NCBI RefSeq assembly: GCF_019429335.1 | Contig: NZ_JAHYJB010000015.1 | Location: 1-35,177 of the forward strand | Length of the DNA stretch: 35,177 nt | Reading direction: 5' to 3' | Source of the DNA: Sulfurimonas sp. | Lineage (GTDB): Bacteria; Campylobacterota; Campylobacteria; Campylobacterales; Sulfurimonadaceae | Shown here: one piece after another, positions 8,849 to 14,089 of the stretch | Layout of the letters: each line of letters begins with the position of its first letter | How positions within the stretch are numbered: the first letter of the stretch is position 1 | Translations under genes and position numbers: made by a program | Notes under the pieces: model-generated | Told to the model about the DNA's origin: nothing | The model's database searches: none | Seen by the model: only the letters and a program-made list of their open reading frames with translations

Positions 8849-8865
8849 AATTCTTCTCTTTTAAT

Positions 8866-8901
8866 ATAGATATCATCAAGCTTGAGTGGGATGATATCTA
8901 T
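8866..8901. terminator. 12-bp perfect hairpin between ftsZ and the convergent fnr-type gene
   Basis: ATAGATATCATC (8866-8877) and its exact complement (8890-8901) flank a 12-base loop. The loop edge holds a competing 10-bp palindrome, TCAAGCTTGA (8876-8885). No long T-run follows on either strand, so it is a weak intrinsic terminator or a 3'-end stabilising hairpin shared by two converging genes. The rest of 8902-8990 shows only a small CCATT-CT-AATGG palindrome. Confidence 0.45.
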
Positions 8902-8990
8902 TAACACTCCATTAACAAAAAATTAACATCTAATTCATACAAACCAAACTCATAGACTCCATTCTAATGGACACATTTTATATTATTGAC

Positions 8991-9620
8991 TTAAAAATAT
9001 TGGGCAAGCGCATCTCTGTCTATATACTTTTTTTTGATATTTATTATTTCACCGTCTTTGAAGAATTTTAAAATTCTAGATAGTGTCTCAGGAGAAACGC
9101 CGAGAATTTCCGCGATTTCTATATTTTTAGTCTCAAAGAAATCGTCCGTATGGTTGTAGATATATTTTGCAACCCTCTCTTTTGAGTCTAAAACAAGATT
9201 TGTTGATATTAGATTTTCAAGATTTTTAATCTTTTTCACCAAAGATGTATGAATGTTAAAGGCTAGATTCGGATTTGAGAAAATAACATCTTTTAGTTTT
9301 TCAAAATCAATCTTTAAAACCTCTACATCACTGTAGGCTTTAGCAGTTGCCGGATATGGCATACCCTCAAAATTTGCGACTTCTCCGATAAGTTCGTTAT
9401 CGTGGAAATATTTTAAAACCACCTCTTTATGACTAGATGACGTCTTGTAGAGCTTTATAATGCCTTTAACCAAGAGATAGAGATATTTTGGTGCATCACC
9501 CTCATAAAATACTATACTCTCTTTTGATATTTTATGCTCAGTTGTAAAATGTTCTATCTTTTTTATCGTATCTTCATCAACATTTTGAAAAAGAACTATA
9601 TTTTTTAAGTGTATTCTCAT
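8991..9620 (-). CDS. Crp/Fnr-family regulator, cysteine-free, FNR-type recognition helix
   Basis: A 209-aa transcription factor with an N-terminal cyclic-nucleotide-type sensor barrel (about 10-120, with G-D-A-P-K-Y-L-Y-L-L-V-K-G), a long dimer helix and a C-terminal winged helix. The recognition helix reads S-P-E-T-L-S-R-I-L, with Glu178, Ser181 and Arg182. This E-x-x-S-R set is what E. coli FNR uses to read TTGAT half sites. There is no cysteine in the protein, so it cannot hold the Fe-S cluster of true FNR. This is typical of Dnr/Nnr-type regulators that respond to nitric oxide through heme, but the ligand here is unknown. It is the last gene of the NosL/ABC block, 50 nt behind the membrane protein, and a perfect TTGAT-N4-ATCAA box precedes that block. 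Confidence 0.9.
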   Translation of the reverse strand: MRIHLKNIVLFQNVDEDTIKKIEHFTTEHKISKESIVFYEGDAPKYLYLLVKGIIKLYKTSSSHKEVVLKYFHDNELIGEVANFEGMPYPATAKAYSDVEVLKIDFEKLKDVIFSNPNLAFNIHTSLVKKIKNLENLISTNLVLDSKERVAKYIYNHTDDFFETKNIEIAEILGVSPETLSRILKFFKDGEIINIKKKYIDRDALAQYF

Positions 9621-9670
9621 GGCTGTTTTTAATACCTCGTCATTAAGTTAAATTTTACCGACTATGCTCT

Positions 9671-10618
9671 CTAGAGCCAAACACCGTTTTTCATATAGTA
9701 TATTACCACAAACAGTGTCACTAATATAGCATAGAATGAATTTATCAGAAGTGAAATCTTGTAGTTTATATCAGACCCATTTACAAAGCCTACAACAAAA
9801 CCATAAAATGTCCCCGTAAAAAGCATACCATATATCAGATAGCCCACATAGTAGTAATCCGCCTGCAAGAAGCAAAAAGGGCAGTGGTGTGATGGAAGCT
9901 CATATATATATGTTCCAAAAAAGAGTATAAGAGCGACTATCGCAACAACAACAAAAGAGATGTTTGAAAGAGCAAAAAGATATCTGTTTTTTAGATAATA
10001 GAACAATGCAATCAAGAGATAATTTCCGTAAAAAAGAGCCAAAAGCGAAGTTGTTGTTATGGAAAAAATAGCAGAAATGGCAGAGTTTGCAGAGCTTGAG
10101 TAGATACTCCCGCAGCAGCTTACCATCTTGTCTATCTCTATATTTGCAAACATAAAGCCCTCTAAAACGACCTCGGTTATAAAGAGAAAAAAAGTGACGA
10201 TAAATAGCCCAAACTTCAGCTTTGTGTAGGGCTGATTTTTATCTTTCATATCTTCTGCGTGAAGTTTTAGCCAAGAGGCAAAAAGATAGAGATTTATGAT
10301 TTTTAAAATTATGAGATATGTTCCGTACTCAGTTGCATCAACAACGCCTGCCACACACATTGCACCTGTTAGAACATTTGAAATCTTATCAAGCGTAAAT
10401 ATAAAAAACAAAAAGAGCGGAATTTTTACCACAAAGATATATTTTATAATAGTTGCCGCCAAAACACTCTGTTTCTCAAGCTGATACTGGGCGTTTGAGG
10501 TGGAGTTTATATCCCACTTTAGGTAAATTTTAACGCTTAATACAAAAGCGATAATTGCAAAAATAGTAAATATTATATTTAAGATTAATATGGCTAAAAC
10601 TTCTGGAGTCAAAATCAT
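9671..10618 (-). CDS. Polytopic membrane protein with cysteine pairs (NosL/ABC block)
   Basis: A 315-aa integral membrane protein with about eight hydrophobic segments. I do not recognise a named family. Notable are G-A-M-C (about residue 87), a vicinal C-C in V-S-C-C-G-S (about 168-169) and H-H-C-P-F-C near residue 247. H-H-C-P-F-C just outside a membrane segment could be a thiol redox or metal site, loosely recalling VKOR/DsbB-type proteins; this is inference. It begins directly at the end of the ABC ATPase gene, so it is part of the same transcript. The start at 10618 is ATG. Confidence 0.8.
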   Translation of the reverse strand: MILTPEVLAILILNIIFTIFAIIAFVLSVKIYLKWDINSTSNAQYQLEKQSVLAATIIKYIFVVKIPLFLFFIFTLDKISNVLTGAMCVAGVVDATEYGTYLIILKIINLYLFASWLKLHAEDMKDKNQPYTKLKFGLFIVTFFLFITEVVLEGFMFANIEIDKMVSCCGSIYSSSANSAISAIFSITTTSLLALFYGNYLLIALFYYLKNRYLFALSNISFVVVAIVALILFFGTYIYELPSHHCPFCFLQADYYYVGYLIYGMLFTGTFYGFVVGFVNGSDINYKISLLINSFYAILVTLFVVIYYMKNGVWL

Positions 10619-11287
10619 CTAAAGCAAAACTCCATGATTTATCTCCAACACTCTGTCAACGATATCAAGGTCAAAAAAGAGAGGGTCATGCGTTGCTACT
10701 ATTATGGTTTTGCCATCACGCTTCAACTCTCTTAACATCTCTATAAAATGCAAAGAGAGCTTCTCATCAAGGTTGGCGGTAGGCTCATCGGCAAGAATGA
10801 TTTTAGGGTTGTTTATATTTGCCCTTGCTATGGCAACTCTCTGCTGCTCTCCGCCTGAGAGATTTTTTACAAGCCCGTAAGCTCTGTGCACTATATGAAA
10901 CTTCTCTAAAACGCTCTCAAGTTTAGCCTCTACCTCTTTTACATGCAGATTTAGTGGCACTAACGGCAAAATGATATTTTCGCTCACACTTAGTGATGGA
11001 ATAAGGTTATATTTTTGAAATATAATGCCTATGTTGTCACGTCTGTAAGCCGATGCAAAACTATCAACAAGTTTTGATACCCTCAGCCCATCTACGACAA
11101 CCTCTCCGCTCGTTGGCTTTGCAAGAGAGGCAATGAGTGAGAGGATAGTGCTCTTTCCGCTTCCGCTTGCTCCCCTTAAAACAATAACTTCTCCATCTTT
11201 AACGGTTAGATTTATATTTTTGAGTGCAGTTACGCTGTTCTCTTTGCTCTCCTCATATATCTTTGTAATATTTTTTAGCTCAATCAT
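10619..11287 (-). CDS. ABC transporter ATP-binding protein, LolD/MacB type
   Basis: A complete 222-aa ATPase of the LolD/MacB/FtsE group. Walker A is G-A-S-G-S-G-K-S-T at residues 39-47, the signature is L-S-G-G-E-Q-Q at about 143-149, and Walker B is I-I-L-A-D-E-P-T near 164, followed by the switch His in A-T-H-D. This group drives type VII 'mechanotransmission' transporters, which move lipoproteins or act on periplasmic partners rather than importing solutes. The start overlaps the permease stop by 4 nt, so they form one unit. The substrate is not readable from sequence. Confidence 0.92.
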   Translation of the reverse strand: MIELKNITKIYEESKENSVTALKNINLTVKDGEVIVLRGASGSGKSTILSLIASLAKPTSGEVVVDGLRVSKLVDSFASAYRRDNIGIIFQKYNLIPSLSVSENIILPLVPLNLHVKEVEAKLESVLEKFHIVHRAYGLVKNLSGGEQQRVAIARANINNPKIILADEPTANLDEKLSLHFIEMLRELKRDGKTIIVATHDPLFFDLDIVDRVLEINHGVLL

Positions 11288-12462
11288 CTCATAACCTCAT
11301 CAGCATCCAAGGTAGCGCCTCTGTAAGATGGAATTATTGTAGCTGCTATGTAGATAGGCACGCTTAAAAAAAAGATGAGAAAGAGTGTTTGAATATCAAA
11401 GACAAAAGGGAGTGCAAACGATGTTTTTAACTGAGAATAGCCGGTAAATATATTTTGAAGAAGCGGGGCTTTTAAAATATAAACAAAAAATAGAGCCAAA
11501 ACAACTCCTGACATGTAAGAGAAAAACGAGATTATAAAACTCTCATAAAATTTCTCTTTTAAAACATCACCCACACTCCAGCCGATAGCTTTAAGAATTC
11601 CGATTTCCCTTCTCTCTTCGCTGCTTAGCCCGCTTAATTTGTCATATATAATTATAAAAAAAGTAAAAAGCGAGACGACAAAGAGTGCTAAGAAAATCCC
11701 GCTCTTATAGTCAAATATATTTTGATAGCTGATTTTTATATCATCTTTTGTAATCACCCTCACATCTGGGTATAAAAGCTTGATTTTTGAAGCAACAGTG
11801 GCTATCTCATCCTCGTTTGCAACTTTTACGACTATATCGGTAGCCATATTTTTTGACATGTTAAAAATCTCTCTCGCATCATCTTTGCTCATAACAATAA
11901 CATCGTTTGACTCAAGCTCACTCTGGGTATCGAAAACTCCGCCGATATCGACTCTCTTTAGAGTTCCGTCATGTTTTATAAAGTTAAAGTACTCTTTGTA
12001 GTAATTTTTATCCATAACACTTTCGACACCCTCGCCAAGCATCATTGTCGGCTTTGAGAAATCAAGCTCTTTTGCAGCGGATGCAAAGCTCTTTTTGTAC
12101 TGCTCTTCAAACTCATCTATGCCGACAAGAGTAAAGTTTACGCCTGCATTTTCAAAGTAGTAGTATCCCCAAACTCTCTCAGTTGCACTGCTGACACCTG
12201 TTATCTCTAAAATCTCATCAACTGAACTTGTCTCTATATCATAGTGGCGGCCGCCTCCGAGCTTTTGAACTATAATCTCAGGCAGTGCGTCAACCGTACT
12301 TTGTAGCTCATGCTTTATGGAGTTAGAGATAAAAAAAACAGATGTCAGCAAAAATATAAGAGTGCTTAAAACAAGAACAACAAAAAGTGTCTTAAATTTT
12401 TGTCTAAATAGGGAGTTTACGGCATGTTCAAAAAGATACATGTTAATTTTAGCGCGCATCAA
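11284..12462 (-). CDS. ABC transporter permease, FtsX/MacB/LolE type
   Basis: A 392-aa permease with the type VII layout: a first membrane helix at about 27-49, a large extracytoplasmic domain (about 50-255, MacB-PCD like), then three more helices near 262-284, 310-335 and 355-380. The cytoplasmic coupling segment R-R-E-I-G-I-L-K-A-I-G-W is the classic FtsX-family motif. It pairs with the ATPase directly downstream. Its gene overlaps the 103-aa gene upstream by 14 nt. Companions (NosL repeats, a redox-like membrane protein, an Fnr-type regulator) suggest a role in assembling or protecting a copper or heme enzyme; this is inference. Confidence 0.9.
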   Translation of the reverse strand: MMRAKINMYLFEHAVNSLFRQKFKTLFVVLVLSTLIFLLTSVFFISNSIKHELQSTVDALPEIIVQKLGGGRHYDIETSSVDEILEITGVSSATERVWGYYYFENAGVNFTLVGIDEFEEQYKKSFASAAKELDFSKPTMMLGEGVESVMDKNYYKEYFNFIKHDGTLKRVDIGGVFDTQSELESNDVIVMSKDDAREIFNMSKNMATDIVVKVANEDEIATVASKIKLLYPDVRVITKDDIKISYQNIFDYKSGIFLALFVVSLFTFFIIIYDKLSGLSSEERREIGILKAIGWSVGDVLKEKFYESFIISFFSYMSGVVLALFFVYILKAPLLQNIFTGYSQLKTSFALPFVFDIQTLFLIFFLSVPIYIAATIIPSYRGATLDADEVMR

Positions 12463-12760
12463 AACTCTTTTTATTTATGATGCCTGAGTGCGAATAGACG
12501 TAGGTAGAGGGAAAATACTCTCTTAGGCTTCCGTCATCCTTATATATGGAAAAAAGGTCACTCACGCTTCTGTGTCTAACATAAGTTGCTTCGGTAGAGA
12601 TTGCCAAATCGCTAAGCCCGACAAGCGAAACAAAACCCCTTTTTGATTCTAACATGTCAGAATCCATGCTCTTTGCCATCTGCAGATATACAACCTCCAG
12701 ACAAAAAGCTCCTACAAGAGCCAAAAATGTAAAAAAAAGAGGCCTGCTTCTTCTACTCAT
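12449..12760 (-). CDS. Small membrane-anchored protein (NosL/ABC block)
   Basis: A 103-aa protein with a basic start (M-S-R-R-S-R-P), one hydrophobic helix at about residues 8-28 and a polar tail that should face the periplasm. It has one Cys, inside the helix. I know no family. It overlaps the NosL-like gene by 8 nt and the permease gene by 14 nt, so its translation is locked to both. That argues for a subunit or adaptor of the same machine. The ATG follows AGAAGAG-like purines within the upstream coding sequence. Confidence 0.72.
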   Translation of the reverse strand: MSRRSRPLFFTFLALVGAFCLEVVYLQMAKSMDSDMLESKRGFVSLVGLSDLAISTEATYVRHRSVSDLFSIYKDDGSLREYFPSTYVYSHSGIINKKSFDAR

Positions 12761-13844
12761 CTAGCTTATAAACCTCTTTTTCTTCTATATCTTCAAACTT
12801 TACTATCTTACGAGCCTTATGGTCCATATAAAAAGTTTTCGCCTCGCTCTCATTTATAAAAGGGATAAGCTCATCTCCCATCGGTCCATAAACATCACTT
12901 CCTATGACATAGTAAGCATTTCTTGCATCTATTGCCTTTTGCGAGTAGTAGTCGGTTACAAGCATCTTAGATATCCCCTCTTTATGCTCAAAATAGTACT
13001 TCATCATATCTTTTACGCCATCAAACGAAAAGTGAGTATCCTGATAAAATATCTGCGCCGCCCATTTTGGATACTTATATACAAACATTCCGCAGATGGG
13101 GCACTTTTCATCTTTGCTTATAGTGATAACATCGCCTATCTTTTTTAAATCACCAAATCTCTTAACTTCCCAAAGATATAAGGAGAGAGACTGAAGCTCA
13201 CCCTCTTTTAGCTCGCCGCAAAAGTTCTTCTCTTTTATGGCAGCTTTTAGCTCATTGATTTGCAGATACGCATTTATATCTATCTCTTTTTTGCATCTTT
13301 TGTCAAATATCTTCTCACCCATCGGATAGACTTGCTTTGTTTTTTTTGCTTGAACAGACTCAATGTCAGAGCCAAGAGACTCCTGCGCCATCACAAGAGC
13401 GGTTTTAAAGTCGACAATCTCTCCGCCGTTTTCAATGCTAAAATCCTCTGCCGACTCTTTTGAAGCAAACGCAAGCTTGCTTATTTTTGACATTGTTCCT
13501 TTTATATCGGAGCCGACAACGTAAAGGGCGCTCTTTGCAGGTATGAGTTTTTGAGTAGCGGCGTCAACGACTTTCACATCCTCTCTCTTTATATCATACT
13601 CCTGCATATCAACCGCCAAGCATCTTATAGAGCAGTATTGTCTCTCATGAGCGTTATTGATTTTTGAGGTGTGAGAAGTTTTATAGTAGACCTCTATGCT
13701 CATGCCGCATACTGGACACCACTCTTTTTGCAGACCCTTTTGAACCAGCTGAGGTTTGATTGTTGCCGATTTTGTAAAACTGTTTGCGCCCAAATTTAAG
13801 GTTCCAAACAAAAGAGAAAAAGAAATAATAATTTTTATAAACAT
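12753..13844 (-). CDS. Tandem NosL-domain periplasmic protein
   Basis: A 363-aa secreted protein with an N-terminal signal peptide (about residues 1-20) and no lipobox, unlike classical NosL. It carries two NosL-type metal-site motifs: W-C-P-V-C-G-M at Cys43/Cys46/Met48, and K-C-P-I-C-G-M at Cys248/Cys251. Each is followed by a matching block (Y-V-V-G-S-D-I-K-G-T-M and Y-V-I-G-S-D-V-Y-G-P-M), so the domain is duplicated. Between them, a region of about 60 residues (G-E-K-I-F-D-K-R-C ... L-S-L-Y-L-W-E-V-K-R) looks like a cytochrome c-type fold without C-x-x-C-H. NosL binds Cu(I) for nitrous oxide reductase, but no nosZ is in the window. It is first in its operon, with AAGGG before the ATG and a long leader. 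Confidence 0.85.
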   Translation of the reverse strand: MFIKIIISFSLLFGTLNLGANSFTKSATIKPQLVQKGLQKEWCPVCGMSIEVYYKTSHTSKINNAHERQYCSIRCLAVDMQEYDIKREDVKVVDAATQKLIPAKSALYVVGSDIKGTMSKISKLAFASKESAEDFSIENGGEIVDFKTALVMAQESLGSDIESVQAKKTKQVYPMGEKIFDKRCKKEIDINAYLQINELKAAIKEKNFCGELKEGELQSLSLYLWEVKRFGDLKKIGDVITISKDEKCPICGMFVYKYPKWAAQIFYQDTHFSFDGVKDMMKYYFEHKEGISKMLVTDYYSQKAIDARNAYYVIGSDVYGPMGDELIPFINESEAKTFYMDHKARKIVKFEDIEEKEVYKLDE

Positions 13845-13942
13845 AAGAGCCCTTGGATAATAATTTTTATTATTTTATCCTAAAGTGTTTGCATGAATGA
13901 TTAATCGCTGAATTTGATGTTTTACTCTGTTTGCACAAAATA

Positions 13943-13974
13943 GTTTGACCTAGGTACCCATCCTAGTCAAACTA
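13943..13974 (-). repeat. Long hairpin in the leader of the NosL/ABC operon
   Basis: AGTTTGACCTAGG (13943-13955) pairs with CCTAGTCAAACT (13963-13974), leaving one bulged base and a 7-base loop. No T-run follows on either strand, so it is not an ordinary terminator. It lies about 100 nt before the NosL-like ATG, inside the predicted transcript, and may be an RNA control element or an operator. The other leader bases (13845-13942 and 13975-14040) show nothing else that I can name. Confidence 0.45.
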
Positions 13975-14047
13975 ATGTCAACCCACTTTCTATTACCCTC
14001 TTTAATACACTTTTTACACTAACCCCCAAAAAGTTGTATTAGCCAAA

Positions 14048-14089
14048 ATCATAGTACATTTAGCAACTCTCACTCTTGATTAATATCAA
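14048..14089 (-). promoter_or_regulatory. Class II FNR-type promoter of the NosL/ABC operon
   Basis: A perfect FNR box, TTGATTAATATCAA, lies at 14076-14089. On the minus strand a TATGAT -10 box (5 of 6 matches) lies at 14053 to 14048, giving +1 at about 14041. The box centre (14082.5) is then exactly at -41.5, the standard site for class II activation by FNR/CRP proteins. The leader would be about 197 nt. The operon's own last gene encodes a regulator with the matching recognition helix. Confidence 0.72.

Follow-up and report, generated by a model that had tools for sequence, protein, structure and literature searches.

The locus described here raised the question of why a bacterium with no nitrous oxide reductase gene would keep a compact set of genes joining NosL domains to an ABC transporter and a cysteine-bearing membrane protein, and what such a set might do. 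It lay in a stretch of 35,177 nucleotides (the window), which was contig 53 of a Sulfurimonas-like genome of 2.06 Mb and 99.98% completeness (G000). Five minus-strand genes made up the block: a tandem NosL protein assigned to the periplasm (12753..13844, 363 aa), a 103-aa anchored protein (12449..12760), an FtsX/LolE/MacB-type ABC permease (11284..12462), a LolD/FtsE/MacB-type ABC ATPase (10619..11287) and a 315-aa membrane protein, P315 (9671..10618). The first four genes overlapped successively by 8, 14 and 4 nt, the ATPase and P315 genes abutted, and a Crp/Fnr-family regulator (8991..9620, minus strand; Pfam cNMP_binding and HTH_Crp_2) followed after a gap of 50 nt. The permease began with a TTG codon, the very next codon being ATG. 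Open reading frames and Pfam matches thus confirmed the arrangement that an earlier note had read from the letters; the end that it had placed at 14089 had to be corrected, as that position is non-coding and lies beyond the NosL start, and the block ends at 13844.

The NosL family (PF05573) matched the 363-aa protein twice, with 177 bits against a cut-off of 24. The protein carried a signal peptide without a lipobox, the motifs CPVCGM and C-x3-C in its N-terminal NosL domain, CPICGM in its C-terminal one, and two cysteines in the region between them. By domain and CxM motif it is a member of the NosL family, and Cu(I) binding is predicted; published work describes NosL as a chaperone for Cu(I) that bears a CxM motif (PMC6530538). 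The middle third of the protein also resembled a degenerate cytochrome c domain (GEKIFDKRCK ... LSLYLWEVK) in which the haem motif was absent. A second NosL protein of the window genome (C57:66200-66565; L003/L116), with a counterpart in G126, consisted of one N-terminal-type domain with a lipobox, and its gene was divergent from that of a TlpA-like thioredoxin and from the operon of a large molybdopterin oxidoreductase. In the loci read, NosL-type genes usually lay upstream of the block and often downstream as well. The 103-aa protein was predicted to have a single membrane anchor at its N terminus, followed by a short tail in the periplasm, and no Pfam or NCBIfam family matched it above cut-off; a small protein stood upstream of the permease in 73 loci. 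The regulator, whose gene adjoined the block in many Sulfurimonas, contained no cysteines.

The transporter pair was assigned by family and by fold. The permease matched the Pfam family FtsX (PF02687) with 49 bits against a cut-off of 25.5, and the ATPase matched ABC_tran with 125 bits against 25, its Walker A, LSGGEQQR signature and ADEP motifs being intact. The AlphaFold model of the permease (pLDDT 82.6) aligned with LolE (Z 23.1 over 368 residues), HrtB (19.3) and MacB (17.1), and also with FtsX. On this model the permease is of the type VII ABC fold, with LolE as the nearest structure, and the pairing of a permease having a large periplasmic domain with a LolD/FtsE-type ATPase places the two in the type VII class; with one permease gene, the protein presumably forms a homodimer. 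LolCDE, MacB, HrtBA and FtsEX share this permease fold and ATPase class. The block differs from these systems in having a single permease gene and in its partners, which are NosL and P315 rather than LolA, MacA/TolC or EnvC, and both proteins missed the NCBIfam equivalog cut-offs, the permease that for LolC/E (51.5 against 362.45 bits) and the ATPase that for LolD (192.5 against 307.75 bits). Type VII systems turn the energy of ATP into mechanical force (PMC11491553).

The distribution of the block was determined among 150 Campylobacterota genomes from 39 genera, a sample pseudo-replicated by many concisus-like genomes, which yielded 110 P315 sequences and their loci. Strong permease matches and P315 occurred in an identical set of 47 genomes with zero exceptions, indicating that the block is not a chance arrangement, and the ATPase gene lay between the two in nearly all loci read. 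The best 80 matches in a scan of genome contigs all belonged to Campylobacterota or unclassified bacteria. Of the 40 genomes with nosZ, 32 were among the 47 with the block and 8 among the 103 without it (Fisher 4e-14); at the genus level, all 10 nosZ genera fell within the 16 block genera (p 1.3e-5, genera not being independent of one another). The genes travel together, and the block co-occurs with nosZ. The 8 nosZ genomes without the block indicated that some species do not need it for NosZ. Close homologues of the copper-haem sulfite reductase MccA (>1200 bits) were present in 22 genomes, every one of which carried the block, and 11 of the 47 block genomes, that of the window included, had neither nosZ nor a close MccA, so these two enzymes do not explain all of its use. 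A distant MccA-like branch (ca. 600 bits and 50% identity; genera g13, g16 and g18) occurred without the block, which suggests that not every MccA-like cytochrome needs it.

Gene neighbourhoods tied the block to both enzymes. Nos-linked loci accounted for 26 of the 110. In L127 and L128, the order ran nosZ-B-D-G-C1-C2-H-F-L-Y, a NosL-like gene, the small protein, permease, ATPase, P315, a second NosL-like gene and a Crp/Fnr gene, and in L201, L213, L214 and L218 the block was similarly placed within the nos operon. Many Sulfurimonas carried it at the locus of the window (ste24, prmC, DUF4149, block, Crp), where it faced a complete nos cluster (e.g., L147, L148, L149, L162, L174 and L177). The nos operons abutting or enclosing the block in relatives were complete and of clade II. 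It had been noted that no nosZ, nosD, nosF or nosY stood beside the block, and this holds in the window; nos genes do adjoin it in close relatives, and the independence from nos drawn from that observation was not sustained, as the same block at the same locus faces or sits inside the nos clusters of near relatives.

Genomes resembling Campylobacter concisus and some resembling Sulfurospirillum, both named by gene content, had a paralogous copy of the block after the genes of the mcc cluster, which encode an MccA-like cytochrome, a PPIase, a ferredoxin, an NrfD-like protein, CcsA and a Sel1 protein. Besides NosL domains, permease, ATPase and P315, this copy included a small anchored protein and a NosL-like tail protein. 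These mcc-linked copies formed one clade in the P315 tree (support 100/100), separate from the window block, whose genome has no MccA. At L130 (G056), an mcc-type block kept ccsA and mccD, the mccC-like frame was short, and the genome gave no MccA match; perhaps this is another block that outlasted its enzyme. In L105 and L107, from two genomes that have the block but no nosZ, a NosL-like gene came next after the block, and then the gene for a TauE/SafE-like membrane protein bearing the motif HCxGMCG, possibly another copper or redox partner. The block might also have proved to be the end of a known nos operon, and this was half so: it is nos-associated, yet it also accompanies MccA and outlasts nosZ. 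Part of the system, which had been thought undescribed, was published in 2016: a "five-gene insertion", left unexplained, places an ABC permease and an ATPase between nosL and nosY in the nos clusters of Sulfurospirillum cavolei (PMC4794192). Matched by gene order only, that insertion has the position and order seen in L201 and L214; the report gave no function, mcc link, P315 motifs or nos-less copies (PMC4794192), and no functional study of the block was found in the openly readable literature.

The placement of the block in or beside the nos and mcc clusters, the type VII fold and the joint travel of its genes supported a role with copper enzymes, and the earlier proposal that the block handles copper or assembles metalloenzymes in the envelope was borne out to that extent by the co-occurrence with NosZ and MccA. 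We therefore favor, with a probability of about 0.55, the reading that the block is an envelope machine providing periplasmic respiratory copper enzymes with Cu(I) or helping to build their copper sites. Under this reading, the NosL tandem would carry Cu(I) in the periplasm, the permease and ATPase would convert ATP hydrolysis in the cytoplasm into motion of periplasmic domains, the 103-aa protein would act as a docking part, and P315 would hold Cu(I) at the membrane in a periplasm-facing cluster of Met, Cys and His or, alternatively, would exchange electrons or thiols to keep the chaperone and its metal reduced. In relatives the block would serve NosZ, and the separate paralogous copy would serve MccA. 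Copper as the cargo, the direction of transfer and the part played by P315 are all inferred here. The known NosDFY-NosL system likewise combines NosL-type Cu(I) chaperone domains with an ABC transporter at the assembly of a periplasmic copper site, NosFY and NosD being needed for CuZ formation (PMC7558416), and it often shares an operon with the block in relatives. The block differs from NosDFY in that its permease is of type VII rather than NosY, it includes no NosD, and it adds P315 and the 103-aa protein; it coexists with NosDFY where nosZ is present and is found without nosZ in the window genome. As an ABC machine additional to NosDFY in 32 of the 40 sampled nosZ genomes and in all with close MccA, it offers a concrete target for gene deletion. 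The Campylobacter P19/FetM iron-uptake locus also brings together a metal-binding periplasmic protein, an FtsX-type ABC transporter and a Cys-containing membrane protein, with a different metal and different protein families.

The P315 model (pLDDT 85.7) had eight long helices, and the motifs of the protein were GAMC (C88), CC (C168-C169) and H-x-C-P-[FY]-C (H244-x-C246-P-F-C249). The C-C and H-H-C-P-F-C signatures noticed previously were thus present, and GAMC, CC and HxCP[FY]C were kept in 110 of 110 P315 sequences, giving five invariant cysteines; loop charges in the model suggest that all of these motifs face the periplasm. No Pfam or NCBIfam family matched P315 above cut-off, its profile found no match among PDB sequences, a plasmid search with P315 gave none either, and Foldseek and VIA comparisons with the PDB returned only generic helical bundles with no informative fold. 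The block also defines an unannotated membrane protein family.

The same cysteines could indicate that P315 is a DsbB/VKOR-like membrane oxidoreductase that, together with the ABC pair, maintains the proper redox state of the NosL cysteines or of copper and haem proteins during their assembly, copper itself being moved by others. DsbB and VKOR proteins carry CPxC at the start of a helix together with other periplasmic cysteines, an arrangement that P315 would share, and the mcc clusters, where CcsA adjoins, also require haem attachment. One of 30 P315 members gave a weak VKOR match (E 0.0018), but the other 29 and ten distant members gave none, no fold matched, the conserved C88 is unpaired, and the NosL domains, always present, point to copper. 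We regard such a thiol system as unlikely.

Neither nosZ, nosD (TIGR04247) nor mccA was matched in G000. In the P315 tree, the window fell in a set of four rows (98/92) with L148, which is nos-linked, with L142, and with L143, whose genome has nosZ. In L148/L232, 13,837 bp separated the regulator stop from the ftsZ stop, holding the nos cluster, a 310-aa membrane protein, a second Crp gene, a 142-aa gene and a 374-aa multihaem cytochrome; in the window, the same two stops were 142 bp apart (8849-8990). Within this interval lay a triple TTAACA direct repeat of 11-bp period (8901..8928, plus strand), which together with its flank up to CATACAAACC matched L142 exactly and differed from L232 by one base; beyond CATACAAACC the relatives ran on to TATACT and the window did not. 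By comparison with relatives, the repeat is a promoter-box relic marking the junction of a lost segment of ca. 13.8 kb. As a nosZ promoter it was rejected, since in relatives it stands before a DUF302-like gene that lies between ftsZ and the nos island. Within this clade, relatives with nosZ have the canonical NosL lipoprotein gene after P315; that gene was absent from the window and from L142, L152, L165 and L187, in whose genomes nosZ found no match. The tree would place about four separate nos losses (window, L142, L152, and L165 with L187), the genomes other than that of the window being MAGs of undefined completeness.

Loss on this scale could mean that the block was an accessory of nos alone and now persists as a functionless remnant of the deleted island, as the missing segment, the surviving box and the disappearance of nosZ, nosD and the canonical NosL gene would allow. 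However, all six genes were intact with their motifs conserved, dN/dS between the window and L142 lay at 0.08-0.15 in the five block genes and at 0.03 in the regulator (part of this divergence being older than the losses), the block was likewise kept in the nosZ-less L142, L152 and L165/L187, and 11 of the 47 block genomes had neither enzyme. We consider a functionless remnant improbable. To judge from the coding sequences, the block is kept under purifying selection after nos loss, like that of about three other Sulfurimonas lineages without nosZ, and an accessory nos- and mcc-linked type VII ABC/NosL module, kept after nos loss, is the best reading of the locus.

In the window genome, the retained block would serve another copper user or else be a recent leftover. 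The cbb3 oxidase was the only copper enzyme found in G000, and searches for multicopper oxidases and plastocyanin/azurin-type families returned none there; the target would thus be cbb3, something unrecognised or nothing any more. That cbb3 is the target left over is guesswork; to our knowledge, this oxidase is near universal in Campylobacterota, block-less genomes included. Retention without nos genes suggests a general machine for copper supply or copper-site assembly. A bolder version, in which P315 and the type VII pair are a new ATP-driven assembly machine apart from NosDFY, serving chemically unlike copper enzymes (NosZ, MccA and, in cells without nosZ, one or more others), and P315 founds a new family of membrane copper/thiol proteins, is held only tentatively, as possible with the odds against it. 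A dedicated LolCDE-like extractor of neighbouring NosL lipoproteins is very improbable: LolE is the nearest permease fold and many tail NosL proteins bear a lipobox, but the window block encodes no lipoprotein (a lipobox is missing from the NosL tandem, and the 103-aa protein is membrane-anchored), the tail NosL proteins of the mcc and other copies are membrane-anchored with no lipobox, the LolC/E and LolD cut-offs were missed, and P315 would be left unexplained.

Upstream sequences gave some indication of how the block is regulated. The box TTAACAC-N4-TTAACAC, with up to two mismatches, preceded the NosL tandem gene in 28 of 56 relatives (e.g., L196, L199, L206 and L221), compared with 20 of 472 promoters elsewhere, a count that included several promoters of the block's divergent partner. 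Such a box was missing upstream of the NosL gene in the window and in most Sulfurimonas copies that adjoin a Crp gene. The missing box where the Crp gene adjoins hints, at the level of sequence, at a regulator swap in the Sulfurimonas copies. In Wolinella, nos is controlled by Nss-type Crp/Fnr regulators (PMC6682613). The same box, whose 11-bp period resembles that of OmpR/PhoB-type boxes, also occurred upstream of nosZ in L127 and L195, and an OmpR-like gene adjoined nosZ in L127 and L131.
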